Source of the DNA: Gigantopelta aegis
Lineage: Eukaryota; Mollusca; Gastropoda; Neomphalida; Peltospiridae
Assembly (NCBI RefSeq): GCF_016097555.1
Contig: NC_054702.1
Span: 67,272,001-67,336,000, forward strand
Direction of reading: 5' to 3'
DNA length: 64,000 nucleotides
Below the pieces are notes generated by a model. The model was not told the DNA's origin and made no database searches. It saw only the letters and a program-made list of their open reading frames with translations. The position numbers were made by a program, and so were the translations under genes. Each line of letters opens with the position of its first letter. Within the stretch, counting starts at the first letter, position 1. Shown here piece after piece: positions 7,390 to 42,400 of this stretch.

Positions 7390-10300
7390 ATGAATACATC
7401 TTGGACACTGAAGCGAAAACTGCAGAGAGAATTGGATGTAAGTTGTAAGACATCTAAAAACTGCAATAACCATATCCCCCATCAAAAACTGTCATTTCAC
7501 TAGCACTATGTTCCATTAGTTAATCATGGAACAAAACCTGCATAAGCATAATGTTTGATTATATCATAATATCATATTTTATTCACTAAATAAGTCTCAA
7601 TTAACCAATTACGAGAAAAGCATGTGGGAAAAATTAAGAAATTATTTAGTTTATTTGAGACTTATGCACTTTGTCATGTTAAGTGATCACTATATTGAAA
7701 ATAGACACCTAAAATAAGTAACTAATTACCATCACTCAATGTTAAGGACATCTGTATGGCATATACTTGTTTTTAATTAGTTTGTGCAAGAAAACAAGAA
7801 ATTGTTTTCTAAATGGCATATCTTTTAGGGTTTTGTGCCTTTGCATGCCATCTTGGATAATTTTTTATGGTGGTTACAAAATAACAGCCTTTGAAAGTTT
7901 GATCACAGTTTTTATCATAAACAAAGACTATATATCTTTTTTGTTTTTCAGGAAAGGGTGCACACCAGTTTCCAGAGAGTTTTGCATGTGACACCAGATT
8001 TAATCAATCGCCTTGGTTTGGAAAAAGAACTAGAGGTAAATATGATACATGTAAACAGTCTGGCCAATAACCAGGGGAGGATAGGGGGGTTGGACGATCC
8101 CCTCTCCCCCTCCCCGCAGAAAAGAGAGTTCCACTCCAAAGGGAAAAATAATGCGTAATATCCATATAAAAGGACAGGTCTCTTGTAAAGATGAAGACCT
8201 ATTAAGACAGGGGACAATATTTCGAAATCTGAGGTAACCGGAAGTCGGTTCACATGGTTTTTACCTAGGTAACCAATTGTTCGGTTACATGAATTATATT
8301 TGCATAACCTGTATATTACCTGATCAGTTACCTCAAAGTTATTATTATTCACCACTTGCCATCGGAATCGCAAAAAGTAATTTTTAGTTGCCCGAATCTA
8401 AAACCCACTGTCCTCGGGCATCGGGCCACCGTATTCTAGAACCTAGCAGCTTGTGGAAGTTAACACTTTTGTAAAATGATTAAATATCAGCCCAGTACTG
8501 AAACAAAATAGATACATTTGGAGGAAAAATGCCCATTCCCTGGTGCATGATTAGACTAATAATTTTCTTTTATAAATAACAAATAAAGGCTACCATTTGT
8601 CACTGATATGTAAAATTTAGTATATAGCAGATTAAAAAAACAAACACCAAAAACCCAAACAACAAATGTCCAGTTCCTCTGAACTATAAAACAGGATACT
8701 CACAGAGTCACTGGTGCATGATTAGATTAATAAAAATAAATCTTATAAAAAGAAAGACCACAATTTGACACTGATATTTTGCGGTGGCGGTGCTACTTTC
8801 ACTTTATCGCTGGTACTTCTATACTACAGTGACGTTCCAAATGTTTGTTATTTAAAGCTCATTATGCAATGTTAGTATTTTTCAGCTTTTGCAACATTTT
8901 TGGATTTTTGTTAACGTTAAAACCGTTTTCATCCTTTGTAAAATTATAGGTAATCCAATATTATGTCTACATATATTCCTGTAGAGATAAAATAGCAGCA
9001 GATAATTTAGGCACCTTAGCGGTCCGTGCACATTTCTTTAAAACTGTTGGTTTGTCTCTATTCTGAGCCTTCGGTCGCAAGTTACAACCGTTGCAATATA
9101 CCGTTGTCTACTGGTTTGCCACGCATCAAGTTCCTAAAATTAGTCTAAAACAGTGGTCGGAATACTAGTAGTATGTCTGCATGAATAAACTTCAGGTAAT
9201 CGTGAAGTCTGCAGGTTTTAATTTCTGAACGTCTACAGGTCACGACGTAACCGATTTGCAGTTCACGTAAATTTAATTTTGCGTAACCGTCACGCGAACA
9301 GAATGGCGGTTTGCGTGAAATATTGTGCCCTGTTAAGACTAACAATGTTCTGTTATGACATCTAGTACATGTTGAAATAACATTTATTAGGTAAATCCAT
9401 CACAAATCAGCAAATATTTAAGATCGCCCATGTACTTTGGTCTCCCAAATATTCCTGTTATCTAAATGAATAAATCCGAAATTTGGGCTCTGTATTCCTA
9501 GTACTTTTTGAGAAATGTAATTTTGCTAACCCTGGTAGGTGTTAAATTTGAAGTCCCATTATTTCAGGATATAATGTACATAGAAACATGAAAGTTTGTA
9601 TGAGTACTGAAAAGATTAAGCAGACTGGTAGTTTTCAGTAGTAGACAACACACTGAACAATTTTTAAAATGCCATTTGATCTTACGAGCAGCCATTCAAT
9701 ATTAATCTTTTTTTAATTGTTTCTCTGTCAAGTCCACCCCAATGCTTCGTGAGTGCTAAAATCATGCATAATTGAAAAATAAATTTCCTAAGAAAGATAA
9801 TGAACTTTGATACACATAAACTGCATACCATTAGCTAGTATAAAATGATACAGGTTTCGGTTTTTAACAATCTACCCACATTGTTTCATTGAAATAGCCC
9901 CCAAATTGTGTGTTTTTTCCGACTTCAGTAGGATGTTGTTCCATAATTAATCATCACATAGTTATAAGATTTAAGATTTATATATCAACTGGGATGGATT
10001 TAACAGACAAAACAAAAAAGTTAAATTTGTGTATAGTGTTTTTGTGAAATAAAATGGAATTTTCTTTTTATCGTTATGTACAATGGAATATTGAACTTTA
10101 GGTATCGGCAGTAATTTTTGATGACAAACATTTATTTCTAATGCATTGTTTACAAGTTCTTTAATAAAACATCTCACATTACTAAGTATTCATTAATTTA
10201 TGATTTATTAGGTGGAAAATGTCCCAGGCTGCAGCATAACCATGCAAATTTCAATAAGTAAAATATGAGAAGTAACCAATTTCAACGAAAATTACCCTAA

Positions 10301-13300
10301 ACATACATAGTAATATCATAAATTAATACAGTAAGTGCATATTCAACAAAATTAACAATTACTTGCCAAATTAAGGGAGCTAACTCTTCAAGATACGGCA
10401 ATACCTGTATAGCTCGATCATGGCCAATATAAAGAGAGTTGACTAAATAAATAAGATTGATTACTTTCAACTAAGCTATTAGTATTGAGGAAGTATGTCA
10501 TTTTTTCCCCAGTATGTTTTTTTATTTGCAACAGGTTTTCATTTTTTAATACCATTCAATAAATGTACACTGCTTGTAATGTAAACAATGATTATACATG
10601 ATCATATATGTATATACTCCATCTGTCATCTGATGAGTTATTTAGACAAAACATTATTACAGTTTTACTTTTTAAATATGCACAATACAAAGCTTTGTGA
10701 CATTTTGAAATAATATCTGCATGTGACATTTTATTGTTTCTTCTTAGGGTCACCAAGGATGTGTAAATTGTCTAGAATGGAATTCAACTGGCACGTAAGT
10801 AAACTAGTAAACTGGGGCCTATACATTTCATTGCAGATTAATTACAGAATGCCTTTTTCTTGTAGAAGCATGATTTAGCTTAGGATGCAAGAATTTTTCC
10901 AATAAATAATGGAAATGGCTGTATTGATTTCACCAAAATCAAGGACTCTTTAAAATAGTTTTTAGCTTAGTGGTATATTGTGATATGTCATAGGATTAGG
11001 CTTGCCACAGTCTAGATCCCCCTAAACAATTTCCTTCACATGCACCTGCTATAGACCAAATGGTACTGAAAGTTTTTTTGTTTGTTTTGTTTAATGACAC
11101 CACTAGAGCACATTGATTTGTTAATCATCGGCTATTGGATGTCAAACATTTGATAATTTTGACATAGTCTTAGAGAAAAAACCCACTACATTTTTCCATT
11201 AGTAGCAAGGGAACTTTTATATGCACCCTCCCGCAGACATGATAGCACATACTACAGCCTTTGATATACCAGTCATGGTGCACTGGCTGGAACGAGAAAA
11301 ATATCCTACAACGATGTCCACTACACAACTCGGAGAAAAGCCACTTCTGGCCGCATGGAACAGACCTACATCAAAAGCTCTGGGGATCCAGGGAGGACCT
11401 GCAAACAACTGCCCAATTCATCACTCAGATCGGAATATCTGTATGAGACAATTTTTACAAATTTGAACGAAGAAGAAGAAGAACGAGATATAACCCAATG
11501 GGCCCACTGACGAGGATCTATCCCAGACCAACCACACATCAAGTGAGCTCTTTACCACTGGGCTACGTCCCTACCTCTAACCCTATCCTGTTACATGTTG
11601 AATCAGGGCTAGAGAGTACTCTATGTAACACTTTCTATTGTCAATTTTTGACTTAAATGCACAGAGTTTCCTAAATCTGATGTCACAAACCTTTAATACA
11701 TGTATGATCCTTTTCGAGTTTGTACATTTATTGTAGGTTTATTAATGCTATGAGTGATCTTCAAAATCATAAAAGTCTGTGACATCATCTAAGAAACTAT
11801 ATGTATTTTAGACCCAGGATGTAACAACCCCTTTAGTCATCAGAAATTTCAATTTCTTTTCAACATTACCTGTCCTCAAGCCTGTGCTCAGATTAAGACA
11901 GAGCAAAAGAAAAATGCGTCCGGACTATACAGTGAAGGAAAAAAAGAAGGAAGTTATAGTCACATGACCGGAACTAGAGGGAGCATACAGTGGAAGATTT
12001 TAGGCCATCACATTGACTTTTGGGCTATTAGCTGTAGTGGTAGAGTGCACTTTGACAGATAATGTATCTAAAAAAGAGAAAACGCCTCATGTTTTCTCCA
12101 AATTGACAGTTCATAACACTAAATAGCAGCCTAGTTCTATTCTCAAATACATGGTTAGTCGACTAGTGTTACTACATTTACAGTGTATGTTATGTTGTTG
12201 TTGTTTTTTTGCACAAAACTAATTGCTGCTGATTAAAGGGACACACCCTAGTTACGGCTAGTTGTTAACCATTACGGCGTTGTTTTTCGCTATTAAACCC
12301 ATTTTTTCACAAATAAAATTGCACTTTACTTACCATTTATTATTTAGAATATACATTTCCATTCACCTGAAGTGTTTTTTTTTGGTAATCCTGGTGTTTG
12401 TAATACCACAAAATGCATTTTTCGTATTTCTGAAAAACGGACGCACGTTTGAGAAAAAAACGTTGAGCAGACAAGGTCTAATCTATTTTTAGACGGGATA
12501 TTTCCATTTCAATGTCACAGATGTTGGTATACCACGTGACCGTTATCATTTTGGTTCGGTTTGTTTTCTCGTGCACGGTTCGCGCAATCGACATCCGATT
12601 TGTTGTTGTTCATTTGTGAGATTTTTCTTCACAGTTCGTGAACATTTTCAGTAACAATAAAGTTCAGACAAGTAAGTATCTCAATACAAAACATTACAAA
12701 CCCTTAAAACCAATAATTTTGCTAAGTCCTACGATATCTGGCGAGGGGATACAACCAGGACAGAACAGTTGGAACATGTCCAGGAGAGGTGAAACGAACG
12801 CACCCCAAGTCTGTGAAATTTGTCGTGACGTAGGCATTGTTGTGCTTCAAGCGACATCTACCGGGGACATCAGAATACAAACTTTCAAAATTATTTCAAG
12901 CAATTGGGACATGGGGATTCCCATGGTATTTATCGATATAAAACCTGCTTTTTCACTCCATTTGATAAAAACGTGATCTAAGTGTGTTACAGGTTTGTAG
13001 ATTAACCAAATTATAATTTATTTTCGCTGGATGAAACTAGGGTGTGCGGATTTAAAACAGTGTGTTAGGATGATATTAAATAAAATTTATTTTTGATTAA
13101 ATTTTCTTTCTGTAAATTAGTTTGTTATAATTTATGTATTTTAGGCTTCTTGCAAGTGGATCAGACGATGTTCAAGTTTACATATGGGATCCATTTCTAT
13201 ACAAAACACGTGCCATAGTGCGGACTGGTCACCAAGGAAACATTTTCACGGTTAAGGTGAAAATAACTGCCTCTATTTTCCTTGTTTATTTTTTTTTCCC

Positions 13301-16300
13301 ATTGGTATGCCCTTTTGACGATTTAGTCCACTTGCTCTTTTTCTCTTGGTCCCCTCACAGTATATTCTCTGGATCTGCCCCAGACTATTACCTGATTAGA
13401 ATATTTTAAATTCCATCCTGAATTAATTTTGAAGTTTTTAAAACATTTAAATTTTTATACAAAGTTTTAAAAATATATTGTATTGTGCTTTTACCCACAG
13501 CTCTTTACACTTTTTATTTTAGGTTTATTTTTAATTTCATCCTATTTACATACATGTACTTACCTTTGTTTGACACCCAGTAGCTGATGTATATGTTTGT
13601 GATGAGGTGTTGTTAAACATTCATTCATTCATTCATTCATTCATTCATTCATTCATTCATAAGGTTTCATTATTTTTCACACAGCTGAGAAATTTATTTT
13701 GTATTAGGTTCTTCATAACTCAGCAGAAAATTATTTGGTTGTAATTTGTTTATTGGCATGCAGCTTTTTCATTTCCAAACAATAATTAATCATAATTTTG
13801 TTGGAAGCTGCCATTGTGCTGTGTTTAATATAATAACTTTTAAACACTGCTTAATTTCCATCTTGAATAGTGTAACACATGGACATTCTTTTTTTCTTCT
13901 TTTTTTCAGTTCTTACCAAGCTCCAACGATGGAGTTCTCGTTACCGGTGCGGCAGACTGTAAGATTCGTGTCCACGACATCGCGATGCAGGAGACGACAC
14001 ACGTGTTCAGCTGTCACGCAGGGCGAGTCAAGAGGGTGGCCACTGCACCTAACATCCCATTCATGTTTTGGAGTGCTGCAGAAGACGGAACTATTATGTT
14101 AGTCGGAATTATAAACTTTTCCTTCGTTATACCAGTCATGGGGTATTGCTTGGAACAGACGTTTTGTTTCTTTTGTTATATTATGCCCACAGATGGAATT
14201 TAGAGCGATCACCTGACATATAATGTGTCATGGAAGCAATCATCCTTTATGGACTTAAGGTTTTCCTCTGTCCCAGCCAATGCCCCATGACTGGTATATC
14301 AAAGGCTGTGGCATTCACTATCTTGTCTATGGAAAAGTACTGCATTTTGGGAGGAATAGTCTTTGTGGCGGTAGCAGGTTTCCTCTCTTACTCCTCAGCC
14401 AGTGTCAATATAACCATATATGCTCAGTGTTCTCGCTGGGTGAAAATTAAAGGAGGGCGGCCGCTCGGCACCCAACCCTTAACCCCCCCCCCCCCCCCCA
14501 AAACAACCCAATAAACAAAAAGCCAAAAAAAAAAGGGGGGGTGGAGTTTGGTTACCATATTGTTGTGTGTTGGTAGACTTGTGAAAAGACATACTCCTTA
14601 TTTTGGCTACAAAAAAGTGCAAAAAGGTTTATAAATACGAAATACATGCAGACTCGTCTTTTAATTGAACCAAAGATGATATCGGTCTGACATTCACGGA
14701 CAGTTCCGGTTCTGCTGAACCGATCAAAGTTTTATTATTATTATTTCTTAATAAAGATTTCAAGATATACGAAAAACAATAAAGATGTTTGTAAAGTGAT
14801 CCCCTAATGTCGGATACATTTTTTGTTATTTCCTTCATCATCGAATGATTCGATCGCTGTGATAAAATAGTAGTTTCGTTTTTGTAAAGGCAGTGTAGAT
14901 ATTATTTGGCACTCAAGATAAATGATTTTAATGATAAACACTTCCACTTCCGTTGTTTTTATAAGCGTTCATATCCCCCCAAAATGAAAAGTTTACAATA
15001 TTTTATAAAGAACTGATGAATAAACAGAATGACAGAAATGACAGAAAGTAAAAATCATCCGTTATAACCAATTATATCTGCAATGGAGGACAAAATATCA
15101 GACGATAGTTAGTGGAAACAAAAGACAGAATGACCGTTCTGATCACGTTTCAAATTTGGTGCCAAATAAGTGAGGGTTTTTTCAATCAGAGATTGCCGAA
15201 TCCATAAAAAATAAAAATATTTTCATTGCTCAAATAAAATATAACTTTTATTGTGTCTATTAAACATATAAATGGATACAGATATAGGACAAAATAGAGG
15301 CTGTTAAAAATACTGTTAAATTACGGTACGGTAACTGTCGTAAATGTTTCGTCAATTGCATTTTCGTACACAACGCGGCTCGTTTCCTTTGATGTCCAGT
15401 GTGCAGACTGATCGTTGTTTTTTTGTGTGGAAAAAAGTGTGCATTTGGAAATAGCGGAGATAGGTGCTGGAAAATAAAGGGGGCGCACAAAAATAAAGGA
15501 GGGCGGAGAACGTGAAAGGAGGGTGGCAAAATGGAATAACGGTGCGGGCCGCCCTGCTTAAATGGAGCAGCGAGAAGTGTTTTTAAAAAAAAAATTAATT
15601 CTTTTATTACCCAGAACATAGATACGGGTAGATGTACCTGAACTCTGGTACCCAAAATACATTAATTCAACGTAATTCTTAGTTGAATCGGTCATCTGTG
15701 ATTAAACAAATGTGTAGTATTCTATTCAATTACCAAGTTTTAATAGTTATGGTAAGAGTTGTAGGGATGTAAGAGCTACGCAGAAACATGGAAATGCATG
15801 ATGAAACAAAAACATGATGTTCAATACTGTTGACCACACAAGGTTCATTTGCATGTTTCAAGTTTATGATGTATGCCTTATATTATAAGTTAAAACCAGT
15901 TTAGATTTGTTAGCATTGAATAAAAATTTTGGCAGTTCCAGGGGTTGCAAACAACAATTTTCCTTCAGGGACACTTGAGCGGCCCCTGGACCCCGGCCGG
16001 AGTAAACTTTTTTGTTCCAGCCCCTCTCACATCCCTGGAGTTGGGTTGAATCATATAATTTAACATGAAGAAATTCAGTAATGTGCAATTAAAATTAATT
16101 ATATCTAAAGCCAACTTTAAACAATATATTATTTGATGACCGACACTTGACAATCAGTGTATGGGTGGGTTTTTTTCAAGCCATGCTTTTTTCCTCTTTA
16201 TTTACAAAGCAATAATTACAACAAATTCATAAACCTGTTGACTGACATGTTTTAAAATATTGAGTGGCATATTGCAATTTCTAGTTTTGTTCATGGTAAC

Positions 16301-19300
16301 CTAATGTGTGTTGTCTAAAACAGCATTCTCACACCGACTTGTCCACCCACTTTAGATGTTCTCCACAGTACAATTCGAATGCCCCTATAAGAATATTTTC
16401 CTTGTTACAGGCAGTACGACCTGAGAAGTCCAGAAAGCAGTCAGAGCAATCCACGGAATGTTCTAGTTAATCTGAACGCACACATGGGAGAGTATGCTGA
16501 AGCTAAATGTCTTGCCATCAACCAGTTGAGACCTGAACTCTTTGCTGTTGGTGCTAATGATCCGTACGTGAGAATGTATGATCGCAGAATGTTAACACCC
16601 AGAAGCATGAAGTTTCCTGGAGATGCCAGCAGCAGGTGCACATTTCTTAATATTTGATTTATATATTAAATGTTTTGAATTTTAACACTGGTAATTCTTC
16701 AAAAAAATTCTAAAAGTTATTTACTTACAATACTAAAAACTGTAAACAAGTTACATATAGGAAAAAGTAATTTTCACTTCAGTTGCATAATGTTTACTTT
16801 GTGCCTTAAATGTTTATTAGTTTTGTTGGGAGTGGGATGTTGAAGAATATTTTGTTTCTTCTCTGATTAATTCCACTTTTTTCATTGAAACATTAAAAAA
16901 AGAGGAAAAAAAGAACAACATTTAAACAGCCATTTGTTTTAAGATGCCACTTTAATATATAACTCAGTGACATTTTCTTAAATAAGCAGACATCTTTCTT
17001 ATTTGTTACCTTTTTTATACTCCCATGGGTATGTTTGACTACATTAAAAATATAATATTTGGAGCATCCATGTAATTTGAATACTATGTATCTGACACAT
17101 GTATGCATACATCTAGCAAAGATTTGAAGATTTCCAAATTTGGTGGAAAGATCTAGCCAAGACTTGTTGCTGCTATATTATTTTAGGTTGGCAGCATCAA
17201 TGTTAACTTATGTGATCATTGTGAAAAAGAGTTTTATCATATTAAACATTCATTAAAATTGTTCCATTATGTGATTCAAAGTTATTACCTAGTTAGCATC
17301 CTGCCATATAAAACCCTGTTCCCTACAACCTGCTGGTGAGCTGTAATCCAATCCGATCACAGAAAATGTCTCAGTAAGAGACTGAGACATGGAATCTGAT
17401 GCAAATACAGGCCATAAGATTTAAAATTTCTTGGGGAAACACTTTTTCGGTTCCGTGCTTTGTGATCATGGGAACACATTGGAAACTGTAGTCATACTCA
17501 ATATGATAATCATGGGAAAAGAAATTTCGGTTCTGTGATTTTAGCAGCATGGTACTGGAAATAATTGTTTACGTGAAATCTGAGGACCTGCAAATAACTG
17601 TACATCAGCTGTTTCAAATGATGGCACCAGTGTAATAATTTACACCAGCAAAATGTTATGAAAATTATGATGTTAACTTTCTGCATTCATGTTTGAATTT
17701 AATTTTAATAGCATTTAGCATATTCTAAGAAAGTATCAGTGTTTGGAAAATGGGTTGTCGATTAAATAATTTCAAGAGACTATGTAGCTTAAAATACACA
17801 AGCCAGTATAAACTCAACTAAACTGTAAGTAAATCTAACACACTAAAATAAATTTCAAAACATAACTAATTTTTTGGAAAAGAATCATTACTTATTTTCA
17901 TAATTTATAAAACATTTGGGAAAATTGTGATGTTTAATTTTGTGTTCTCTTGGTGTGTTCTGTAACTGGCCATTGTGAGAGAGACTTTTTGCTGATTCAG
18001 GTTTCCATGGGAACATCCACACCTTGAGACCATGGAAGGGGAGGATTACAGTCTGCCGCAGGGATGTCTTAGCTATTTTGTGGCAGGTACTAGTCCACCA
18101 GTTTGCTGTCTGTCTGCTGGTGTGCTCATCCCCATTTGCTGCTGAATAGATTAACGCGTGCCTTTACTTTAAATAATTAATTTTAATCCTTGCCACTTCT
18201 TTCCACCCATCAACCTCCCCCCCCCCCCCTAAAAAAAAATAAAAAAATAAAAAAAAAATAATAATTTAAAAATAAAACCATTGTCCTACCAAAAAACCCA
18301 ACCCGCAACTCATGCCATAACTGAATATTGAACATATTTCTTTTTTTTTAAACTTGTAAACTGAACATATATTATATTATTAAATGTGTAAAGTATACAA
18401 ATTTCTACAATGACTACTGAGTAGTAGCAGTGGCATGTCATTTTCATCTCATTTTGATTTACAAAAAAAAACACAGCTAAAAAAGAAGTCAGAGGTATAA
18501 AAATTACGCTCAAAAACGGAGTAACAGTACAAGCATTTTATTTCAATCTTATTTTTATTGTGTCATAAATGGAGCTTTTTGGCATTGTTGTGCCTTGGAC
18601 CGAGATGTTCAAACTAACTTGAGATAAAACACATTAAGTGTTAACAAACAGACAAATAACACTTATTCTGCTTCATCATATTGATAGGATATTAAATGAG
18701 CTTCCATTTAGTATCATGTTTATGTCCCAAGTGAAATAATTTTCAGTTGTCACGAGCTTTAGCAAGTGACAATGAAAATTATTTCACAAGGGACATAAAC
18801 ATGATACGAAATGGTAGCGAGTTTAATATCCTATTTGTTACCCATAATCGATCTTAATTTATATCACTCATCTAGTTTCGTTGATGTTCCTGTAAGGTTG
18901 TGCGCCAGTTGATGATGTCATTGTGTGACGTCAAAAGTGTTACGTCCCACTGGGCATTCTAGTGGCACGTATAACTTTGATATGTACCAAGATATTTTTA
19001 ACAATATGGGTAATAAAGTGAGTTATTTACTGAGAATTTAGTTTTGTTTGCTTTATTAATTTAGGTTTTTGTTTTTGTTTCGACGTTACATTTTTAATTT
19101 GCAGAAATAATTATTTTAACATTTTCTAGCTCATTTAGCTTTTGCTTTGCAATCTAAAGTAGCTAACTAATTTAGACATCTATTACAGTGCTTATATCCA
19201 AACATCATTTAGCAACTTTAGTATTTTTTCGTTTAATAATTTAGCTGCCATATACAAATTAAGCAGTACAAATATTTTGGTGTAGATTACATTTCAACAC

Positions 19301-21474
19301 TTAACCCAGGCCCAATCAATTTAGAATATGATTCATTAAAACTTCTTTTTTTTTCATTAAAGACATGAGTTATTTCAGCAGCAAACTAGTATCGGCAAAT
19401 CAGCAGACATTTTGCTATTTTGTAACTTAATGTATCACCTGCTTTGTTCTCCACTTTGCTTTGCCAGGACTGCATGGGAAAACCTCAATTTGATGAATAC
19501 ATTATTCTCACCCGATGAGTTTGGTTTACCATCTGACTGTGCAGACTTTTATGTAGCAGGTATGATAGTTAACCTTTGTTTAATATCATCTGTTGGCCTT
19601 TTAATAAACTGCGTTTAGTTAATTTCTGTGTTGTATGAGTTTAGTACTCAGGTTATGATAACTGATACTAAATAGATTCTAGATGTGTTTTATTGTCTGG
19701 TGGAATGAAGGTATGTACATGCTGACATTATTTTGTTATCATGTCATAGCTTTGTCTCTTGAATTCTGTCTTTTACAGCAGTGGTAATTTGAAGGTCATA
19801 AAAGATTTCAATAAAAACTTTAAAATACAGGCCTAGAATGTCCTGGAAAAAGCATTAAATTTTATTGTGTCCTGGAAATATGGCCACAATTTTGGTGGTT
19901 TATTTTTTTCACATCTTTACTTTTGTTGTCCTCATAACCTGTCTAAATTCAGACAACAATTTGTGATAAAAACATTCATTGATTGAACATTTCATTCGAA
20001 AAATTAAAACATGTCCTGGAAATATCCTTGAATTTTATGTTTTTTCAAGTGTAAGGACATGTAACACTAGAATGAATAAAGTGAAAATTCATATAAAAAT
20101 ATATTTTTAGGTTTTAAACCCATACCACCTCAAATGAAAAAAAATAAAGTGAAAATATTTCTTTACAAATTACCATCAAATTGCATGGGTTAAATTTTCT
20201 GTTTGGTACAGGTATGAAGGCAACTGATGGAACAGCCATTGTAAAGCAAGCACAGCCCTACCTTTAGTCACTGTTGACTATTTTAGTAACTTTGCAATGG
20301 AAGCTGCATACCTTGGCTGATCTAGCATTTTGGCTTCATCCCTGTATTAACAGGGCGTCGTGGCAGGCCATCGGTCTACAGGCTGGTAGGTACTGGGTTC
20401 GGATCCCAGTCGAGGCATGGGATTTTTAACCCTGAGTGAGTGCTCCGCAAGGCTCAATGGGTAGGTGTAAACCACTTGCACCGACCAGTGATCCATAACT
20501 GGTTCAACAAAGGCCATGGTTTGTGCTATCCTGCCTGTGGGAAGCACAAATAAAAGATCCCTTGCTGCCAATCGGAAGAGTAGCCCATGTAGTGGCGACA
20601 GCGGGTTTCCTCTCAAAATCTGTGTGGTCCTTAACCATATGTCTGACGCCATATAACCATAAATAAAATATGTTGAGTGCATCCTTAAATATAACACTTC
20701 TTTCTTTCTTTCATTCCTGTATTAAAAATAAAAATTGAATCTATATAATTTGATGGTCATTAAATTTGTTACGAATCTTTTTTATTTACTCTGATTGATT
20801 TTGTTTACTGCAACAAATTTTATTTGAGTTACTATGAGTTTAAAACTTAATAATATATTTTTGTATTAATTTTAACTTTATTCATTATGGAGTTATGTGC
20901 CAATTCATCAGTTCCCTTTTGATGCAAACAGACTGTATTACTAATTATCTGCCCATAATAGCAAGAACGATTTAAGTTTTTCCAAGATATTTGGCAGTCA
21001 GTGATTTATGATCAAGTTTGTTTTTATTTTACTACTTATTAGGATATCAATAACAAAATTACTTTTCACTAGCTGCTTTTGATTAAAAATAGAAATGTTA
21101 GGTGAAATTAAAATTATTAGGGGCTATTATCATGGTGGACTCACAGTGACAGAATATTATTATACTGAATCCTATGAAGGACACAATTTCTTTGGTTTAT
21201 CTTAAATATTGACATTATACAACAGGGGACAATATTTTGAAATCTGAGGTAACCGGTTACGTGAATTATATTTGCGTAACCTGTGGATTACCTGATCGGT
21301 TACCTCAAAGTTACGTTGAAATTATATTTTAAATACATAATTTTTAGCTCAAACATAAAGTTAAAACAAAATACAAAAGAAAACGTTTTATAAAACAGTT
21401 TCTTTAATGCTTGCAAATCGAAAGAAGTGACTTGTAGATGTTTCTTTTGTTTTCGTACGATCCTAGCGTTGTAG

Positions 21475-21510
<36 letters not shown>

Positions 21511-24500
21511 CCACTTGCCATCGGGATCGCAGAAAGTAATTTTTAGTGCCCGAATCTAAAAACCACTGTCCTCGGACATCGGGCCACCGTATTCTAGAAC
21601 CTCTGTGCAGCTTGCGGAATTAACACTATTGTAAAAGGACTAAATATCAGCCCAGTACTGAAACAAAATAGATACATTTGAAAGAAAAATGCCCATTCCC
21701 TGGTGTATGATTAGACTAATAATTTTCTTTTATAAATAACAAATAAAGGCTACCATTTGTCACTGATATGTAAAATTTAGTATACAGTAAAAAAAAACCC
21801 CACCAAAAACCCAAGCAACAAATGTCCAGTTCCTCTGAACTATAAAATAGGCTACTCATTGGTGCATGATTAGATTAATAAAAATAAATCTTATAATAAC
21901 ATAAAAAGAAAGACCACAATTTGACACTCAATATTTTGCGGTGGCAATGCTACTTTCACTTTATCGCTGGTACTTTTATACTACAATAACGTTCCAAAGT
22001 TTTGTTATTTAAAGCTCATTATGCGATGTTAGTATTTTTCAGCTTTTGTGACATTTTTTGCATTTTTGTTTATGTTAAAACCGTTTTCAACCTTTGTAAA
22101 ATTATAGGCAATCCAATATTATGTCTACATATATTCCTTTAGAGATAGAATAGCAGCAGACAATTTAGGCACCTTAGCGATCCGTGCACATTTCTTTAAA
22201 ACTTTTGGCTCGACTCTATACTGAGTCTTCAGTCACAAGTTACAACCGTTGCAATATACCGTTGGCTACTGGTTTGCTGCACAAACATTTGTCGGAATAC
22301 TAGTAGTATGTCTGCATGAATAAACCTACTGTAATAGTGAAGTCTGCAAGTTTTAATTTCTGAACGTCTACAGGTCACGACGTAACCGATTTGCGGTTCG
22401 CGTAAATTTAATTTTGCGTAACCGACACGTGAACAGAATGGCGGTTCGTGTGAAATATTGTGCCCTGTACAAGCAGCTTATACTAATCAACCAGGAACAT
22501 ATTTTGAAATACATGCAATAAGATTATTAGTTAAAATGCATATAATAAGATCATCAACAGGCACAAATAAGATCAGAATCTGGTTAGGAAGCATTTATTC
22601 TTTGAAAACATTTATTAAACAGACATTGAAAAACTGCCACATATTACTTATTAATGACATTCCTGGATGGTTCTGAAATATACTGAGAGAAAGAAATAAG
22701 GGAACACTTGGTATAGTAGTCCAAATTTCAATCAATATTACTATAATTGTAATGTCTGTACAAAGATGGGATTGAATGTCGGTGTTGAGATTGAGCTTGA
22801 GTAACATGGTTAACTTCCTGACACTGTATTTGTTAGTGTTGATGTGCTACCTTATTTCTTTCCATCAGTATATTAAGGTTAGTACATACATTTGTACTAC
22901 AGATGTCCTTTTTGTGTGTTTTAGGGCACTTGCCTCAGAAGCAGTCGGACTACAAGAAGAAATATCGGACCCTTGCTGCGACCTATCTGACGTTCAGTCC
23001 AGACGGCAATGAGTTGCTGGTTAATCTCGGTGGTGAACAGATCTATCTGTTCGACATAAACAGGAAGAGAAACGCCCTCAAGTTTGACACAAGTCAGTTT
23101 GCCAAGTCAAGTGTTCCAGTTAAAGGTGAGGTAGAGGTCTCTCATGATAATAGTTGTCATTACATATAGGAGTTATTAAGTGAGTTTGAATGCTTCATGA
23201 CATTTATCCTTCTTGTCCCTTTCCTTTTTTTCCTTTTTAATTCTCTTTTTTTTTTCTTCTTCTTCTTTTTTTTTAAACTTGGCAACTTCTGTCTTTCATT
23301 GTCCACCTCCAGATCTAATCCTTGTGACACTGCCTTTGTTTTATAGTTGATACTAACCACACCTCTACCATTTCCCATCATCTGTTTCAATAAGCTTAGT
23401 ATGACCACTTTAGAGAGTGTTCAATGATCACTTCTGGCATTGTAACCACTATTATACTCCCATGCTATATCTGTGTGGTTCTTAACCATATGTCTGATGC
23501 AATATAGCCGTAAATAAAATGTGTTGAGTGCGTCATTAAATAAAATATTTCCTTCCTTCCTCCCTTCCTTCCCATGCTACAGGCAATCATTTGTTTGTGA
23601 CTGCATTTTTCATGTACCTATGCATGTATATATATACTAATAAATTTTAGCAGGGAAGTGTCTAGACTGTGAAGAGCGAAGTTTATAGGGGTGGTCAAGA
23701 CATGATCTCCCGGAAAAATGTCTTGGAAAAAAAGAAGAAAAAAAGGGTGGGGTGGGGTGATTTCGACCCTGAAACCCACCCCTGTATACATTCCTCACAT
23801 ATGTATTTACATTACTGCTAAATGCACTTTTAGACTAAATTGCAAGTTATACTTAACTTATTTGTAGGTGAACTTACATTTGCAACCCATAAGGGTAGTT
23901 TGATGATAAAGTTTATTCACTGCTGCCATCATCAAACATGTTTATTAGATGGTGTGTTTTTGTAGTGAGATAAAAGTTGTCGTGCCTGAATTAATTATCC
24001 AGCATTTACTTGACTTGTTATGTACAACATCTATATGCTTGGTGTTTCAGAAACAGCCTGCCCTCCTACAAATGGTTTTAATATTCATCGAAATGGCACG
24101 ACAAATGGTGTCAGCAAACACTCTGTTCTTCCAAGTACATCGACTAGTACACCATCGGTGCTGGTTCGAGATGTGGAGGACGAGAAACAGAGACCAGGAA
24201 AAAGGTTTCTATTGTTACAAGCTTTTAGTTGTATGAAAACAGAAAGTTTAAAATTATGTTCATTATTATTAAAGATCTTAATAATTATTTTGTAATCTGA
24301 ATGGGGTTTGGGATGGGGGTTTTAGGATGGGTGAGGGGCAAATTGTCAGTTATGTATTTACAATCATAAATAAACAAATAAATATACTCTTAATGTTATT
24401 ATTGTTTTAAATATGAAAAAAGGTATAGTAAAGCCCTGTGACATATAGCTTAAAGTTACTGGGTTCATGTCCCATGTGAGGCAATAGGGAATATTTTGTT

Positions 24501-27500
24501 CCAGTACTAGATCCAGCCCAGACTGAGTGCACCACAAGGCAAAATGCGGAGGTGTAAGACCACATACACCAAGTTTCAGGCCTCTGAAAATTCAAGAACG
24601 ATCGTTCCGTTCATGTGATGCTCACACGAATCTAATTTTGCATAACCTATTTTTTGTTTACTTGTATATAACGGGTTACTCAAAACGGAAATGGGTTACT
24701 TGGATTTATTTCTGTGTAAGCTATAAATGGGTCACACAGATTTTCAATTCTCAGAGGGCCTGAGTGTTAACCACTTGACTGGTGTGATTATGTGTGAATC
24801 TCCTGAGTGTAAGACCCCCAAATAGAAGATTATTATCCAGCAAGCACAATAGATTCCATATACCCCAGGCTTGGGTGATGCCAAGACGGCTCGACTGCAT
24901 GGCTGTGTTCCAAACTGAAAGGGAAATACTGTAGCCTCACCATTCATCCTCATTATCGTATAAGTGTATAATAATTACATGTTTATGATGTCCTGAAAAA
25001 AATGTCTTTGTCTCTGTATTACATATTTGTGACATTTAAATTAAAAAAGAAAAAGTTTTAAATAATAAAACTAAACATGTTGGATTCAAGGAATAAAGCC
25101 CATCCACTGAGTGTATACAGTTGGCATGTTTAGATAACTTGTTTGAATATTATAAATAATATTTTATAAATGTCTATATACATGTATTTAATAAGGTTTG
25201 TATATGTGATGATGAATTAATTTACTTTTTTCAGTATGTTATGTATTAAAATCATTATTGTAGAACTTTTAAAGTTTTATATCCTTGCTTTCATTTCAGA
25301 CACAAACCAGATTCCAGAAATCTTGGTTATTTTGTGGAATCATTGAAGAAGAGAGCCAACAGTTGTTTTGAGAAGGAGCAATACACCAAAGCTATAATGT
25401 TGTACAATAAAGCTTTGGCAATGGCAACACATGCAGCTGTACTGTATGGCAATAGGGCAGCAGCATACATGAAGAGAAAGTGGTAAAATATTGAAAGATG
25501 CTTTTGTTTCTCCTTGCACTTCAACAGAGCTAAAAGGAAATTCATATTGGCCATATGTTTTTGAGGATTTTAGAATTTGGACTCACACAATAAAAACTGA
25601 ATGGGCATTTGATTAATGATAATATGTGTATTATTATGGTGAAATGCATTATTATTGTACTCAAACTTCAGGTTTGTATTTAAACTTTATTATAAATTTG
25701 AAAAGTTCAATAACACGATGTTGGAACCACATTTATATCTTGGGATGAAAAAGTTGGTTTGTGATATTTGTAAATAATTTTATGTATCAAACATGTGCTT
25801 TTAAAGATTTATATTAAATTATTTATGGACTTGTTAAAATTATCTCACAATTTCACACACTATTTGAAAATCCTCAAATGGAAAAAGTTATATATATATA
25901 TATTGTATTAAACAACTATTTCTGAGACAACTGAGAGAATTGCAATTCCCTGATGAAGGCTATGGGATGTTGCTTAAACATAGTGTCCAAATTTTGATGA
26001 AAATGATGAAGTATATTAACATTTCATTTTGAAAAATCCACCTGTACTCATTTTTCCATTTTACTTCAGGGATGGAGACTTGTATGCAGCATTACGAGAC
26101 TGCCACTGTGCCTTGCGACTTGATGGTAATCACCTGAAAGCTCACTTTCGCTTAGCCAGGTGTCTGTACGAGCTAGCCTGGCCACAGGAGGCTCTCAACT
26201 GTTTGCAGCACTTCAAGACAAAGTTTCCTGATTATGCCAAGAGCCACGCTTGCGAGGCACTAGACCGAGATATTAAAGCCGCTATATTTTCTTGTACAGA
26301 TGTGGGTATGTATTATTACAGATGAAGAACACCTTTGAGAATTATTGTACACTAGATGTAACCCATGCTTAATGCGTGAAAGTTTAGATGGAGTGTGGTG
26401 GCCGTACCCTGAGCTTTCCCCCCAAAGAAAATACAACCTACATGTAGAAAGCCATCCAGCCTTCATTAGGCGAGGCTACATGCATGGGCACTTTGTATAT
26501 AGCCACTGCTATGTTAAATGGCATAGATGGCAGTGTCCATTACCTTATGGAATTCATCTTTGCACACAATATTTAGCATGATATGTGTATGGTAGTCGAT
26601 TGGATCTGAATGCAAAAAGATCCTTGCAGAGTGCAGCATCAGGTAAGTAGAAGCGATTAGAATAAGAAACGTGTTAAAATTGTTATATTGTATTGTATTA
26701 TATTGTATTATAGATTACAGCAGAAACAAAAGGCCAACATAGTACATTTTAATTGAATAATAGGTGTCCTATTATTTTAGTTCAGACCTGTAATGTGGAT
26801 TTATAATGATTGTGATGTGTAACTGTTATTTGTTTTGATGGCTTCTAGGATTGATCCACTATGACAAGTTTCTGGTCATTCTTTGGTAATTTTAATATTT
26901 AATATTTTATTTTATTGCATGTAAAATATTGATATTGTAAAATGTTGGGAGGGGCCTTAAATATAGGCTGATGCCTGTTGGCCAATCTGCAAACCTCTAC
27001 CGTTTTTTAAACCATAATAAATATTGTTTAAATCATTTTAATATTGTTATTGCAGAAGTGGGAGCTTCCAAAAGTGATGAAACGTCAAACAAAAGACGAG
27101 CCCCAACTCTGTCTGAACAGGAGAAAGTTTGGCGAAATAAGGCATACGATTATGAATTCCGATTCTGCGGTCATTGTAACACAACCACCGATATCAAAGA
27201 AGCTAACTTTTTTGGAAGGTAACCGTAATGGTTTCACAGCTAGACATTTCAAAGAATAAAGATGGTTAATATACTCATACTGTATTCAATATCTTACTCA
27301 TGCGTTGTTATGATTTTATGAATATCATATCAACAATATGTCTTTCTTTTTTTTTCTTTTTTAACCATCATTCAGAGCTTTGAATCAACATCATGTCTAT
27401 TAAAGATAGTTTATTTTTGTAAGGGAAGTTGAGATTGACAATAAAGGATTTGAATATTTTACTAAATGTAATTATTAGTAAATAAATTACTAGTTAGTAT

Positions 27501-28988
27501 TTTTGACCCAGTAAACTACTTGAGTGACAAGTAAAATCTTGAGATGATGAGCTTTTGTGGAAATCATTTTTAAATACAGAATGGTTCAGTTAAAGAGTTA
27601 GAATCCACCATGAAAAATTCTTGACTGCAAAGATCACCATTTAATGTTTATTCCTATGACTATTAAACACCTTGTTACTGATAATTTATTTTATCATTTC
27701 AGCAATGGTCAGTACATTGTTGCTGGATCTGATGATGGGTCTTTCTTCATCTGGGAGAAGGAAACCACCAACATAGTCCGTGTTCTCAGGGGAGATGACT
27801 CCATTGTCAACTGTCTGCAGCCACACCCTAGCTACTGCCTTCTAGCAACGAGTGGCATTGATCCAGTGGTTCGATTATGGAGTCCGAAAGCAGAGGTTTG
27901 TATAAATAAAAGAAAAATCTAGTTTTACAATTGCAGATCTGGGCCAATATTTTTAAGCTATCTTAGCATTAAGATATCGTAAAAACCATTGTACGCTATG
28001 ATGTCACTATGGCATGTGTTGTAGAGACGTTATAGCCTATGATGGTTTTATGATATTGTAACACTAATCTGTAACGTGAGACCATGATTGTTAGGCAGGG
28101 TAAAATATGTTTTGGCTATTAAAGTTTGTTTACCATTAAATTAGACATTACTTGTCTAATTTTAATATGTTTCTTGTCACCCAATAGCTGATGTCTCTTT
28201 TTTGTGCTGATTAAATATTTGTTCATTCATTCCTGCTGTTTGTAGTATTTCTGAATGCAATTTACTAGTATGCAAAACAGAATAGAGAAAGTACCTTGGA
28301 ATTTAGGGTCAGTGACTTGTTGGGGTTTTTGTGTGGGTTTTTTTGTGTTTTTGTGGGGTTTTTTTATCTCACTGCCCTCTTTCCTTTCTCTCCTTTGAAT
28401 TCCATCTCATTTCTTCCCAGGGTCAGTGACTTTAATCCATGTGCATTGACCAGTCCTCTGGATTTCATGGAAAAAGTTATTTCTACAAAATCATGGCACT
28501 GAAAATACACTGACCATTATCACGTAACATTATCCATCATTACTATGATTACTAAAACAGTTTTTGATGTGTTTTCCACATAATTTGAATTCCACAGCCC
28601 TGTTAAAAAATTTCATATTCAATATAAAGATTTTATAAATCACTCCAAGTCTGAAAAAAATATGCTGTGTGTATTTATAATGATTAAAACATGAGAAAGA
28701 ATTATAATAGTAGTGCATCTGTGAGATTATTTTGTAAACAAAAAACAACATGTGTACGGCAGAAAAATAAAAGTATATTACACCTATGTCATATTGCAGG
28801 ATGGCAGTAAAAATGAGCGTGAGATTGACAACTCTGATGATGCTGCATCAGCCAATCAGAAGAGGATGAATGCCGACCCCTTGGAGGTCATGTTGATGAA
28901 CATGGGCTATCGAATTACGGGCTTTCTCGATGTGGACGAGGATGAAGGGGAGAGATCTGATAACCCAGTGAACTGTCGACAGACATAA
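7390..28988 (+). CDS. WDTC1: WD and tetratricopeptide repeats protein 1 (DCAF9 / adipose), complete, 14 exons
   Basis: Coding exons: 7390-7437, 7952-8035, 10748-10794, 13145-13256, 13910-14097, 16411-16635, then either 18001-18086 or 19468-19559, then 22925-23125, 24051-24204, 25300-25482, 26070-26305, 27056-27218, 27703-27895 and 28800-28988 (TAA). All junctions are GT-AG and all phases agree, giving 702 aa with the first alternative exon or 704 aa with the second (human about 677). The start MNTSWTLKRKLQRELD has an in-frame TGA nine bases upstream. Order of domains: five N-terminal WD40 repeats (GHQGCVNCLEW, TGHQGNIFTVK, HAGRVKRVATAP, and so on, with YDLR and YDRR motifs of the DDB1-binding WDxR type); a TPR block of about 100 residues (from FVESLKKRANSCFEKEQYTK); the highly conserved GHCNTTTDIKEANFFG segment; two more WD repeats (GSDDGSFFIWEKETTNIVRV, ATSGIDPVVRLW); and the tail RRMNADPLEVMLMNMGYRIT. 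Known family role: substrate receptor of CUL4-DDB1 ubiquitin ligase, linked to fat storage. Identity is near certain by recalled similarity to human WDTC1. Confidence 0.97.
8208..9332. mobile_element. 1.1 kb inverted-repeat element, copy 1 (WDTC1 intron 2)
   Basis: Starts caggggacaatatttc and ends gaaatattgtgccctg, which are near-perfect inverted termini, with TTAAGA repeated on both sides (8202-8207, 9333-9338). Near the left end are repeated ggtaacc/ggttac motifs. There is no open frame that looks like a transposase, so it is non-autonomous. It is highly similar over its length to the copy at 21223-22467. Confidence 0.8.
11076..11576 (-). mobile_element. SINE interrupted by a LINE tail
   Basis: Reverse-oriented SINE: its 3' end (complement of ttaatgacaccactagagca) is at the left, then agcaaggg-acttttatatgc, then ataccagtcatggtgcactg, and after the interruption aacccaatgggcccactgac and the decayed tRNA head (ccactgggctacgtccc). 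The SINE body is split at gaacgaga by the LINE fragment at 11298-11480. Confidence 0.8.
11298..11480 (+). mobile_element. 5'-truncated LINE 3' end nested in a SINE
   Basis: The frame ending at 11446 reads CPLHNSEKSHFWPHGTDLH, then QKLWGSREDLQTTAQFITQI and GISV, stop. This resembles the C-terminal end of I/Nimb/Jockey-type LINE proteins (a zinc-knuckle cysteine followed by a conserved WGS..DL..TA.FI..-G.S pattern). After about 20 more bases it ends in a (GAA)n tail, and gaacgaga is duplicated at 11290-11297 and 11481-11488. Tail plus target duplication show target-primed insertion. Only the last 180 bp of the LINE are present. Confidence 0.75.
12237..13051. mobile_element. TTAA-flanked 0.8 kb MITE (WDTC1 intron 3)
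   Basis: TTAA at 12233-12236 and 13052-13055 flank ends agggacacaccctagtt and, complemented, atccgcacaccctagtt. TTAA targets are typical of the piggyBac superfamily. The longest frame inside (112 codons from 12638) resembles nothing I know and is probably chance. Confidence 0.6.
13618..13661. repeat. (CATT)n microsatellite
   Basis: About eleven tandem copies of the 4-bp unit in WDTC1 intron 4; it may be the tail of a degraded SINE, since acacccagtagctgatgtat just before it resembles a SINE end. Confidence 0.9.
14270..14420 (+). mobile_element. SINE fragment
   Basis: Contains cccatgactggtatatcaaa, ggctgtggcattc and gcggtagcaggtttcctctc, the middle of the SINE body in the plus direction. Both ends are missing. 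Confidence 0.65.
14424..15580. mobile_element. 1.15 kb inverted-repeat element (WDTC1 intron 5)
   Basis: Left end agtgttctcgctgggtga with aaaggagggcggcc, and the complement of the right end acacttctcgctgctcc with agcagggcggcc, align over about 45 bp with gaps. A C-run (14483-14500) and gggcgg-rich motifs lie near both ends. No transposase frame is visible. Confidence 0.55.
18001..18086 (+). CDS. WDTC1: WDTC1 alternative exon 7a
   Basis: An 86-nt exon between attcag and gtacta. It enters in phase 2 and leaves in phase 1. It encodes FPWEHPHLETMEGEDYSLP, then QGCLSYFVA, so the protein reads ...SSR-FPWE...LSYFVAG-HLP. Human WDTC1 has LPDGAAQYYVAGHLP at this place, so the end of the exon is conserved. 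It lies in the linker between the fourth and fifth WD repeats. It shares its phases and the W-E...LP..C....VAG pattern with the exon at 19468-19559, and only one of the two can be used in a productive mRNA. Confidence 0.88.
18684..18834. repeat. Near-perfect 70-bp foldback in the intron between WDTC1 exons 7a and 7b
   Basis: The left arm (18684-18753, includes tatcatgtttatgtccc) and right arm (18766-18834, includes gggacataaacatgata) pair with only a handful of mismatches around a 12-nt loop gagctttagcaa. Just to its right, ttgttacccata (18836) and tatgggtaata (19004) suggest the foldback is part of, or next to, a further small inverted-repeat element. Confidence 0.85.
19468..19559 (+). CDS. 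WDTC1: WDTC1 alternative exon 7b
   Basis: A 92-nt exon between ttgccag and gtatga, with the same entry (2) and exit (1) phases as 7a. It encodes TAWENLNLMNTLFSPDEFG, then LPSDCADFYVA, so it gives the same W-E...LP..C....VAG framework with a middle two residues longer. If 7a and 7b are both spliced in, the second is read out of frame and reaches TGA within nine codons. If both are skipped, the following exon is read out of frame and also reaches TGA. This is the signature of mutually exclusive duplicated exons. Confidence 0.88.
20345..20715 (+). mobile_element. Full-length tRNA-derived SINE
   Basis: Head gcaggccatcggtctacagg, box B gggttcggatcccag, body gatcccttgctgccaatcgg, and 3' end ttaaatataacacttc with a (TTTC)n tail. 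About 370 bp, in WDTC1 intron 7. Same family as the copy at 45676-46068. Confidence 0.9.
21223..22467. mobile_element. 1.25 kb inverted-repeat element, copy 2 (WDTC1 intron 7)
   Basis: Same family and same orientation as 8208-9332, with termini caggggacaatattt and gaaatattgtgccctg flanked by TACAA on both sides. It carries an extra stretch including a (TTA)n run at 21476-21508 that accounts for most of the length difference. Confidence 0.8.
23467..23575 (+). mobile_element. SINE 3' end
   Basis: tctgtgtggttcttaaccat through gtcattaaataaaatatttc and a (CCTT)n tail; the 5' two thirds are absent (5' truncation). Confidence 0.8.
24428..24560 (+). mobile_element. Diverged SINE head
   Basis: Traces of the tRNA-like head (tactgggttcatgtccc as box B) and of gagtgcaccacaaggcaaaa, which matches the gagtgctccgcaaggctcaa segment of intact copies. 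Decayed. Confidence 0.5.
24574..24764. mobile_element. 190-bp inverted-repeat MITE
   Basis: Ends tcaggcctctgaaaatt and, complemented, tcaggccctctgagaatt. Lies in WDTC1 intron 9. Contains repeated gggttact motifs like those in the 8208/21223 elements, so it may be a small relative of that family. Confidence 0.6.
27937..28095. mobile_element. Small inverted-repeat MITE, copy 1
   Basis: agctatcttagcattaagat and cgtaaaaaccattgtacgct are mirrored by gcctatgatggttttatgat and attgtaacactaat on the right. Related to the copy at 29404-29550. Lies in the last WDTC1 intron. Confidence 0.55.
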
Positions 28989-39400: not shown

Positions 39401-42400
39401 TGAGGGAACTGATTATTTGCTCCCTAATGTAGTTTATTGGGGGGGGGGGGGGGCAATTTAAAATATTACCATATTGATACTACATGTATATAAATTCACA
39501 TGCCAAAGGGAACTATATATTATTCTCCTTGAACTAATCTCAGGTGTGATGGGTAAGTAGAGAGAGATATTGCTCCCCCTAGATGTCAAGGTCTGAGGAT
39601 AGCTATAGTTTTATTATTGTTTTTGTTTTTTTGCCTGCATTCAACTGGTAAGGAAGGGCAACATCATGTGGTAATTTTGCAGTCTGTAAAAACAAAAAGA
39701 ATTTCATTATTTCAAAAAACTGTATTTTGTTTTAAGAATAAAAGAATGTATTCAGTTGAACATTATAACTGTTGCCATTACATCTATATAATAAGATATG
39801 ACAATAATACTGTTGCAATTTTGAAGTTGTAAAGTAACAACTTTGCCATTGTTTAATTATTACATATTATTTGGAAATAAAATAATTATTAAATCATAAA
39901 AATAATTAACTTAATCATGCATACAAATTTTATTATAAATACAAATTATATATTTTGTAGCCCGCATCATAATTATTATATTAATAATTATCTTATCATT
40001 TCAAAATTGTAAAAATTTATAATTAACATTACCTGAAAATTGCATCAACAAAAATTATATTCTGCCCAACCTGCCCTGTCCCCTCGACATTCAAAGTACA
40101 CGGAAACACATCAATACTAAATATAGATTATACTAATTCAGATTCCTGTTGTTCGTTTCTCTTATATGGCAACCCAAGCTGTTATAATACACATAAGACG
40201 TATTGCAACTATGTGTTAGCTACAGAAAATAAATGACAATATGTAAGGCATGTAAAAAGTTAATATGATAACTTTATTTTATGTAAACCAGTAATCACTA
40301 AGGCTTTGCTTCACCCCCAAAGACCCGGATGATCGGTAACTAGGCCGTGTGACGTCACGCCGGTTCCGAGACTATCAAAGGCTCTAAAGACTAACCCTAA
40401 CCATTGAAAGGAGGGTACGGGTCGAACTCTTAAAAATATTTTTGGGGCACTTGTTTTTATGTGCTTGCCTTAATAAATGAATGGCAAAAGATATAAAAGG
40501 CATATATTTTATTAATTAATAATACCTTTTTGGGTGTTTTATAGGGGCGATTTTTGAATTAATTACTGAAAAAGGCTTGTTTAATCTCAGGGCAGCATGG
40601 AGGCATGGTGCTGCACCATGCTAAAACAAGCTAGGGAAAACACTAGATTTAAACTAAAAACTTCATTGTTCATTAAGGACAATAAACTGTAAATGCCATA
40701 GTTTTAATAAGTGTACATATATATTTCACAGTAGGCCTAAATGCTCATGATTTACAAAAACCCACCCGAAAACGACGTTTAAATAAAAATAAATGATTTT
40801 GCTTTTTTCTCTCTCTTATTTTTTTTTTTTTTTTTTAACTACAACTGAAAAAACCTACGGTCAAGGCCTGAATTAAGAGTGGGGCTCCCAAGTGCATGAT
40901 CGCATCAAGATAAACATTTCCAGCACGATATTTATTATTGTGATGTTTATCAGAGGTCCAGTAGATGTCAAAATGTTAAAAAAACAGACCGTATGTGTTT
41001 ACCTTAATTGGTGAACTATACAAGTTCCATTTACCCCTGGCTCGAGTGATATAGCTCAACTGACAACAAGCATGTCAAGCAGTCCCATACCAAAAGATAA
41101 ATACTGTGCAGTTTTGTACACTATTATATGTTTGTGGCATCTTTGAAAAAAAAATAAAAAAATCTTGATAATGACAAATTTCTTATATTATTATAAACAA
41201 TATCTTGAAAACATGGATACAGGGTGTGCACTTGGGAATTTGTTTGACTTGCCGTTTGGGCTAGTCATGTCAACACTTTGACTTGCCTGTGAAATTTTTG
41301 ACTGGCCCAAATTTTATAGAAAAGTATACATTGTGTAGTACTTGGGATACAATATCAGTTTTAGTGGACACACACATTCGGTTTTAAAGTGTTTATAAAG
41401 TGGTAGTTGTTATGCAAATACCTAGCTTTTTATCACTATTTTCTACCATGCAAATGAGTAATAAATTGGCCCACATTTTTTTGTCCTACTCCATATAAAA
41501 AAAGATAAAAATCTTGTCTTGTCTTCCGATTAGCAGCAAGGGATCTTTTATTTGCACTTCCCATAGGCAGGATAGCACAAACCGTGGCCTTTGTTGAACT
41601 AGTTATGGATCACTGGTTGGTGCAAGTGGTTTACACCTACCCATTGAGCCTTGCGGAGCACTCACTCGGGGTTTGGAGCCGGTATCTGGATTAAAAATCC
41701 CATGCCTCGACTGGGATCCGAACCCAGTACCTACCAGCCTGTAGACCGATGGCCTAACCACTACGCCACAGAGGCCGGTCCAGATATCAGTGATGCACAT
41801 GCAAATACAGCACTGTTGTACGCAATTTATGCAGTGCTCTAAAAACAACAGTGCAGCTATTTTTAACAACCACAAAGAGCTTTTGTTTCAGTTGTGCTCA
41901 ATTATCAATACTTAACTTTTTGGTTGTTTTACAAACATTTCATTTTGGAACTTCCAAAATAATTACGGATGGGACGGTTCGTTTTAGTTTTTTTCCGGTT
42001 CAGTTTTTGGTCCGTGTTGATTTATTCATGGTTTGATTTATTCACAATATGTTTTATAAGTAGTACAAGTACGCCAATTATCATACATACATTTTTATCA
42101 ACTATTTTACGATCAAGACATTTTATTTTTAATGGGTCATTTGTAAAATAATTCTAAATATAAAATTATATCTTGACTTGAAAACAGAAATTGCATTTTT
42201 ACCATGCCATGTTAGCATGTTGGGTCTGGGATACTTGGGCAATGTGTCCCCCTGGGATTTGAGTTCAGAAAGTTGGCAAAATAATTTTGGGGCAAGAAAT
42301 TGCTAGGGATAGTCTCTCCAGTATTTGTTTTTTTTAAATTCAATTGTCTTTAGATGCATAATATATGGGTGTCATGTACACATTATACAAGTCTAAAAGA

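Follow-up and report, generated by a model that had tools for sequence, protein, structure and literature searches.

How could a gene carry two neighbouring exons of which a productive message holds only one, and what might keep the two apart? The question is raised by a WDTC1-like gene in a 64,000-nucleotide (nt) stretch of the Gigantopelta aegis genome (contig NC_054702.1, positions 67,272,001 to 67,336,000, forward strand), which we call the window and number from its first letter. A preliminary description of this DNA proposed that the gene contains a tandemly duplicated, mutually exclusive exon pair, here termed exons A and B. We consider it probable that these are indeed tandem duplicates used one per productive mRNA, yielding two isoforms; an RNA stem closing the intron between them may lower the joining of A to B. 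Each productive mRNA would then carry A or B, and the two WDTC1 isoforms would differ in about 30 residues between WD repeats 4 and 5.

The splice sites and frames of the pair are consistent with such use. The constant exon upstream finishes at 16635, two bases into a codon, and both alternative exons are preceded by AG, followed by GT, open in frame, entered in phase 2 and left in phase 1. Their lengths, 86 and 92 nt, are each 2 modulo 3 and differ by two codons; the positions, phases and length difference given in the preliminary description are therefore all exact. Read across the junctions, the peptides are RFPWEHPHLETMEGEDYSLPQGCLSYFVAG for A and RTAWENLNLMNTLFSPDEFGLPSDCADFYVAG for B. 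By U1 pairing, the donor of A (CAG/GTACTA, -7.1) ranks sixth and that of B (CAG/GTATGA, -7.2) fourth among the 358 GT dinucleotides in 16636-22924. Incompatibility of splice classes was considered as a source of exclusion and rejected, as both donors, GTACTA and GTATGA, are ordinary when set against the U12 consensus. Exon B also has the only TGCATG in either exon, near its 5' end at 19471-19476, where A has TCCATG; we take this to be an Rbfox-type motif.

The frame of WDTC1 is kept solely by A alone or by B alone. Skipping both exons leads to a stop after 28 out-of-frame residues, and joining A to B leads to a TGA at the eighth codon past the junction glycine, which bears out the claim that using both or neither quickly meets a stop. 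These stops lie 1042 nt (neither) and 1196 nt (both) before the last exon junction. A stop far upstream of the last exon junction is the usual trigger of nonsense-mediated decay; because double inclusion and skipping both stop early, their products are probably removed in this way. Since the two exons cannot both be used, two protein forms are probably made. Collectively, the adjacency of the exons, their phases, splice sites and frames, and the unproductive wrong forms fit mutually exclusive exons arisen by tandem duplication, and, as judged from genomic sequence, the exclusive pair appears to be real and probably functional.

Table 1. Positions in the window of the WDTC1-like gene, its alternative exons and the elements of the intron between them.
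Feature	Position	Strand	Remarks
WDTC1-like gene	7952..28988	+	No fewer than 14 coding exons with A and B both included; stop at 28988
Further exons of the gene	7952-8035, 10748-10794, 13145-13256, 13910-14097	+	5' of the constant upstream exon
Constant upstream exon	16411..16635	+	WD repeat 4 by reading; ends ...SMKFPGDASS plus AG; exit phase 2
Alternative exon A	18001..18086	+	86 nt; peptide (R)FPWEHPHLETMEGEDYSLPQGCLSYFVA(G)
Inter-exon intron	18087..19467	+	1381 nt
5' arm of stem	18111..18146	+	24 nt past exon A
3' arm of stem	19374..19409	+	58 nt ahead of exon B; 78% complementary
Candidate branch points of exon B	A19425 (TAAC), A19430 (TTAAT), A19437 (TCAC)	+	Consensus match only; in a 59-nt AG-free stretch
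Alternative exon B	19468..19559	+	92 nt; peptide (R)TAWENLNLMNTLFSPDEFGLPSDCADFYVA(G)
Constant downstream exon	22925..23125	+	GHLPQKQSDYKKKYR...; WD repeat 5 by reading; entry phase 1
Further exons of the gene	24051-24204, 25300-25482, 26070-26305, 27056-27218, 27703-27895, 28800-28988 (stop)	+	

The proposal that only one exon can be used at a time stands as the best reading of the sequence, but it was drawn from the frame, which makes missplicing unproductive rather than preventing it. Exclusion might thus be post hoc: A, B, both or neither would be spliced loosely, decay would clear the out-of-frame products, and the stem would have no role. Such a process has the same either/or outcome as splicing in which the stem lowers A-to-B joining, and differs from it in what the stem does. 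It agrees with the exactness of the frame incompatibility, and in PMC5740500, reads joining both exons are reported in 18 of 20 genes with frame-incompatible exclusive exons. Yet it leaves unexplained a stem found in this intron but in none of the other 12 introns identified, and we regard it as possible but rather doubtful.

If A and B are copies of one exon, some likeness should survive between them. Alignment of their peptides gives a BLOSUM62 score of 50, which 0 of 20,000 residue shuffles reach; with the junction residues R, A and G removed the score is 35, again reached by 0 of 20,000. The first (W-E) and last (LP..C....V) parts are each similar alone (29 and 2 of 20,000 shuffles, respectively), and 8 of the 28 aligned codon pairs encode the same residue. 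In 1000 dinucleotide-shuffled introns the best score against B was 32, and none reached the observed 50. No third phase-matched copy was seen among 779 phase-correct open pseudo-exons on both strands of the window, a scan confined to lengths of 74-104 nt and to matching phases; within this set, a score above 9 was reached by nothing other than the two exons and a version of A that runs on to a later GT.

As DNA, the two exons are no more than marginally alike (local score 79 against 59 ± 10, reached by 15 of 300 shuffles), a point against our account, so that it is agreement between codons that carries the case. Permuting codons gives p = 5e-5 overall, with identity at codon positions 1, 2 and 3 of 13, 15 and 11 of 28 (p = 0.0085, 0.00045 and 0.054). 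The flanking introns gave no clear alignment signal when compared with shuffles (upstream 14 of 300, downstream 275 of 300, 1365-nt stretches 80 of 100). The marginal DNA likeness and the lack of a clear alignment of the flanks would also suit an arrangement in which one exon alone is used, the other having survived the duplication with little or no use. However, both copies have kept an open frame, splice sites, phases and common residues after deep divergence. Moreover, A and B score 40 and 38 against the vertebrate segment (0 of 5000 shuffles each), although this is a lead only. It is quite unlikely, in our judgement, that just one of the two is used. We infer instead an old duplication, in which a single ancestral internal exon gave rise to both A and B, and take the surviving likeness, with identity peaking at second codon positions, to be what the protein requires. 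Peptide likeness, phases, splice sites and codon-level constraint together leave the tandem duplication first proposed as the best reading of the locus.

The intron between A and B is closed by a strong complementarity that went unmentioned in the preliminary description and is added here. By direct count, 30 of the 36 positions in its arms pair (28 Watson-Crick and two G-U) and six are unpaired; pairing is unbroken at either end of the stem, over 11 positions (one of them G-U) and 12. Its two helices have energies of -17.5 and -16.3 kcal/mol. In a gapless test the stem scores 52, compared with 23.1 ± 3.1 for shuffled sequence (0 of 2000 shuffles reach it), and among the six intron-end regions tested, the 14 remaining pairings stay within their null (lowest 25 of 200). 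A score of 52 was reached in only 6 of 3000 random placements, all holding this same stem, and the other 12 introns found contain no comparable pair, their best stems scoring 18.5-28.5. On the + strand of the window, each of the two arms pairs best with the other; the margin is large for the 3' arm and small for the 5' arm (-43.5 vs -42.4 at 11201-11250). The minimum-energy fold of 18001-19559 holds 27 of the 36 stem pairs. With significantly complementary arms in the inter-exon intron, the structure is a candidate stem of the FGFR2 type. The same intron contains a separate strong hairpin at 18684-18834, with 62-nt arms that are 89% complementary and a 27-nt loop, perhaps a small transposon-like element.

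The arms might have another origin and no role in splicing: a mobile element of 1.3 kb, whose terminal inverted repeats they would be, could have inserted into an ancestral intron of about 82 nt. In a scan for strong stems, 42 rows scored at least 45 and this stem (52.0) was listed 23rd; we read the rows ahead of it as inverted copies of a short interspersed nuclear element (SINE), as homopolymers and, in several cases, as inverted repeats resembling those of transposons. The hexamer TTTGCT, moreover, lies just beyond each arm, 3 nt away from one and 1 nt from the other. The exact arm ends, however, lack a direct repeat. For the initial 17 nt of the 5' arm, the window holds a single copy (one match at ≤3 mismatches), though the last part of that arm (15 nt, 18135-18149) has five such matches, including itself and the other arm, against 2.55 expected. 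Compared with the window by blastn (E ≤ 1e-3), the intron matched only its own hairpin and one T-rich piece of 25 nt. An ancestral intron of 82 nt would also be unusual, because the gene's other introns found measure 484-3365 nt. An insertion of this kind is conceivable, and we lean against it.

Could the 5' arm instead be the object of competition? In a docking and selector arrangement, the arm past A would be contested by sites ahead of A, of B and of the downstream exon. Single helices formed with the upstream intron do reach -15.4 kcal/mol (17641-17650 paired to 18115-18124), a match of 8 nt is present at 16985-16992, and in one energy-based test only 3 of 200 shuffles matched the pairing with the region before the exon at 22925. 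In the gapless test, though, that last pairing falls at the null (85 of 200), and the direct repeat behind the candidate at 16985, a duplicated selector at 16980-17018, does not reach significance (27 of 400). Among the intron-end regions, upstream and downstream partners have gapless scores of at most 26.5, against 52 for the stem. Compared with the scheme as laid out in PMC6071210, this locus shows one strong pairing and, beside the short upstream helices, no competitor above about half its gapless score. We think a contest of this sort improbable.

In the account we favour, in which the stem lowers A-to-B joining, a closed stem would bring the donor of A to within about 40-52 nt of the likely branch points of B. 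The three candidates lie 16, 21 and 28 nt past the 3' arm, giving paths over the closed stem of 40, 45 and 52 nt. A distant branch point for exon B was considered and rejected, the AG-free stretch being just 59 nt. In OGDH, branch points 25-41 nt from the donor of the first exon enforce exclusive use, with a proposed limit of about 50 nt, as stated in PMC7969005. The same paper gives 118-131 nt for the OGDH intron in birds and mammals, against 1381 nt here, where the path would be shortened solely by folding. A donor-to-branch distance near 50 nt is thus shared with OGDH 4a/4b only if the stem forms, and folding could act here as a short intron does there. The stem may also hold both splice sites for a regulator. 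We put forward this stem-based mechanism of splicing as a hypothesis. Its fullest version, in which the folded stem places the donor within the steric limit and a factor opening or holding the stem sets a tissue's WDTC1 isoform and hence its degradation targets, strikes us as unlikely.

Several further points weigh against our account. The stem is weaker in an energy test in 100-nt windows, where a value as strong arises in 3 of 4000 shuffles and at 74 of 6000 random placements; the best 25 placements include the stem itself together with sites higher in G+C. In the fold of 17951-19609 the inner helix has a probability near 1 and the outer helix one of about 0.2. By bringing the splice sites together, the stem may equally aid splicing and favour A-B joining. 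Inverted repeats as strong as this occur elsewhere in the window, and the stem could be the terminal repeats of a transposon. Finally, the case is built on the genomic sequence of one species.

Neighbouring homologous exons with equal phases and near-equal length, as here, are found in OGDH 4a/4b, FGFR2 IIIb/IIIc and the insect Dscam1 clusters. Tandem-duplicated exclusive exons elsewhere are likewise incompatible in frame if both or neither are used; at this locus the exclusivity is predicted from sequence. FGFR2 IIIb/IIIc also has a long stem in the intron between its alternative exons, and in the WDTC1-like gene the arms are close to both splice sites. Muh et al. reportedly described, in 2002, a double-stranded RNA element of FGFR2 IIIb/IIIc, and a 2013 paper by Yue et al. 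on Dscam1 exon 17 concerns, by its title, steric hindrance combined with RNA structure. Vertebrate WDTC1 is not known to have a paired exon. In the literature searched on WDTC1 splicing, DDB1, WD40 and adipogenesis, we found no account of WDTC1 as a case of mutually exclusive exons, in keeping with the preliminary description, which knew of none. WDTC1 is likewise absent from the main texts of PMC9741552, PMC5740500 and PMC9013439. The gene therefore appears to be new for this known type of exon, and the stem between the exons also seems to be newly noted.

The exons of the gene, joined, form a single open frame to the stop, of 686 amino acids with exon A and 688 with exon B. For the first coding exon, none of 145 candidates matched a pattern built from the vertebrate start. 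The domain order is WD40 repeats, then TPRs, then two more WD40 repeats, as in human WDTC1 and Drosophila adipose. Pfam searches of the joined pieces returned PF00400 at 47.1 and 37.4 bits (cut-off 27; two stretches each) and TPR_1 at 29.0 bits (cut-off 27.8), and NCBIfam gave a single TPR match, below cut-off. By manual reading, rather than by the Pfam count, there are five N-terminal WD repeats. Among the best 60 of 500 matches in the PDB, the top DDB1-CUL4 receptor was DCAF8 (E 1.2e-33); no WDTC1 chain was present in these 60 or in the 4 matches of another PDB search. We name the gene WDTC1 because its C-terminal part matches the human protein, with 103 of 134 residues identical, which is a lead rather than a database match. 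In the same comparison, the vertebrate stretch corresponding to the alternative exon is shorter than A by 7 residues and than B by 9. No relatives of WDTC1 emerged when prokaryote genomes and viral contigs were scanned: the two viral scans gave zero matches, and the prokaryote scan gave a single locus, a 31-residue match of 47% in a Poribacteria metagenome-assembled genome. At gathering thresholds, Rfam matched nothing in the window.

Other parts of the gene and of the window contain repeats. Two introns of the WDTC1-like gene carry a repeat of about 1 kb in the same orientation (21222-22468 and 8207-9333; 88% identity over the main 1008-base piece), with a partial relative at 53158-53367. At 20354-20712 lies a SINE-like dispersed repeat, copies of which include 45685-46062, 41522-41767, 62406-62637, 60037-60255 and 55523-55735. 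One of these copies is overlapped by a tRNA-like call at 41703-41775, which suggests that the repeat has a tRNA-derived head. A satellite-like array of 118-bp units (11.3 copies, 98% match) occupies 62666-64000 and continues past the end of the window, and a 21/42-nt tandem repeat at 56848-57118 falls within a + strand open frame of 163 codons (56743-57231) encoding R-S-P-R-like units. Outside the WDTC1-like gene, 54246-54485 on the - strand has Listerin, a ribosome quality control E3 ligase, as its best PDB match (E 4.1e-17) and scores 81.7 bits with Pfam UBC_like. On the same strand, 52187-52408 has zinc-finger-type and UBC_like matches, all below cut-off; we take this to be the end of listerin. 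The segment 33412-33522 on the + strand, for which Pfam gave no match, resembles the beginning of TIMM13, a small TIM chaperone.

Where in the protein would the choice between A and B be felt? In the alignment with DCAF8, a WD repeat (chain 379-407) closes with the residues that precede the pair, and the residues that follow it sit in the next (432-461), with a gap between them of 24 residues in DCAF8 and of 61 in this protein with exon B. The preliminary description placed the variable segment between WD repeats 4 and 5; the DCAF8 alignments fit this, but the two adjoining stretches are each weak alone, at 9.3 bits. The variable part thus appears to belong to a long insertion that separates two WD repeats and to come directly after VRMYDRR, a sequence that fits the Y/W-D-x-R motif of DDB1-CUL4 receptors. 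We also assume that the alternative exon is at or near the start of the 'ADP domain' of human WDTC1. According to PMC10483223, that domain binds the chaperonin TRiC, with truncations showing weak binding by residues 1-241 and full binding by residues 1-343, and WDTC1, acting as an adaptor for the ubiquitin ligase CUL4-DDB1, inhibits the formation of fat cells. The choice of exon could alter a binding partner, help with folding or the fit to DDB1, and might affect the choice of substrate, as the preliminary description suggested. If true, a switch just past a likely DDB1-binding motif would make two receptors from one gene and offer a route to tissue-specific degradation, and the stem would offer a handle on steric exclusion made by RNA structure.

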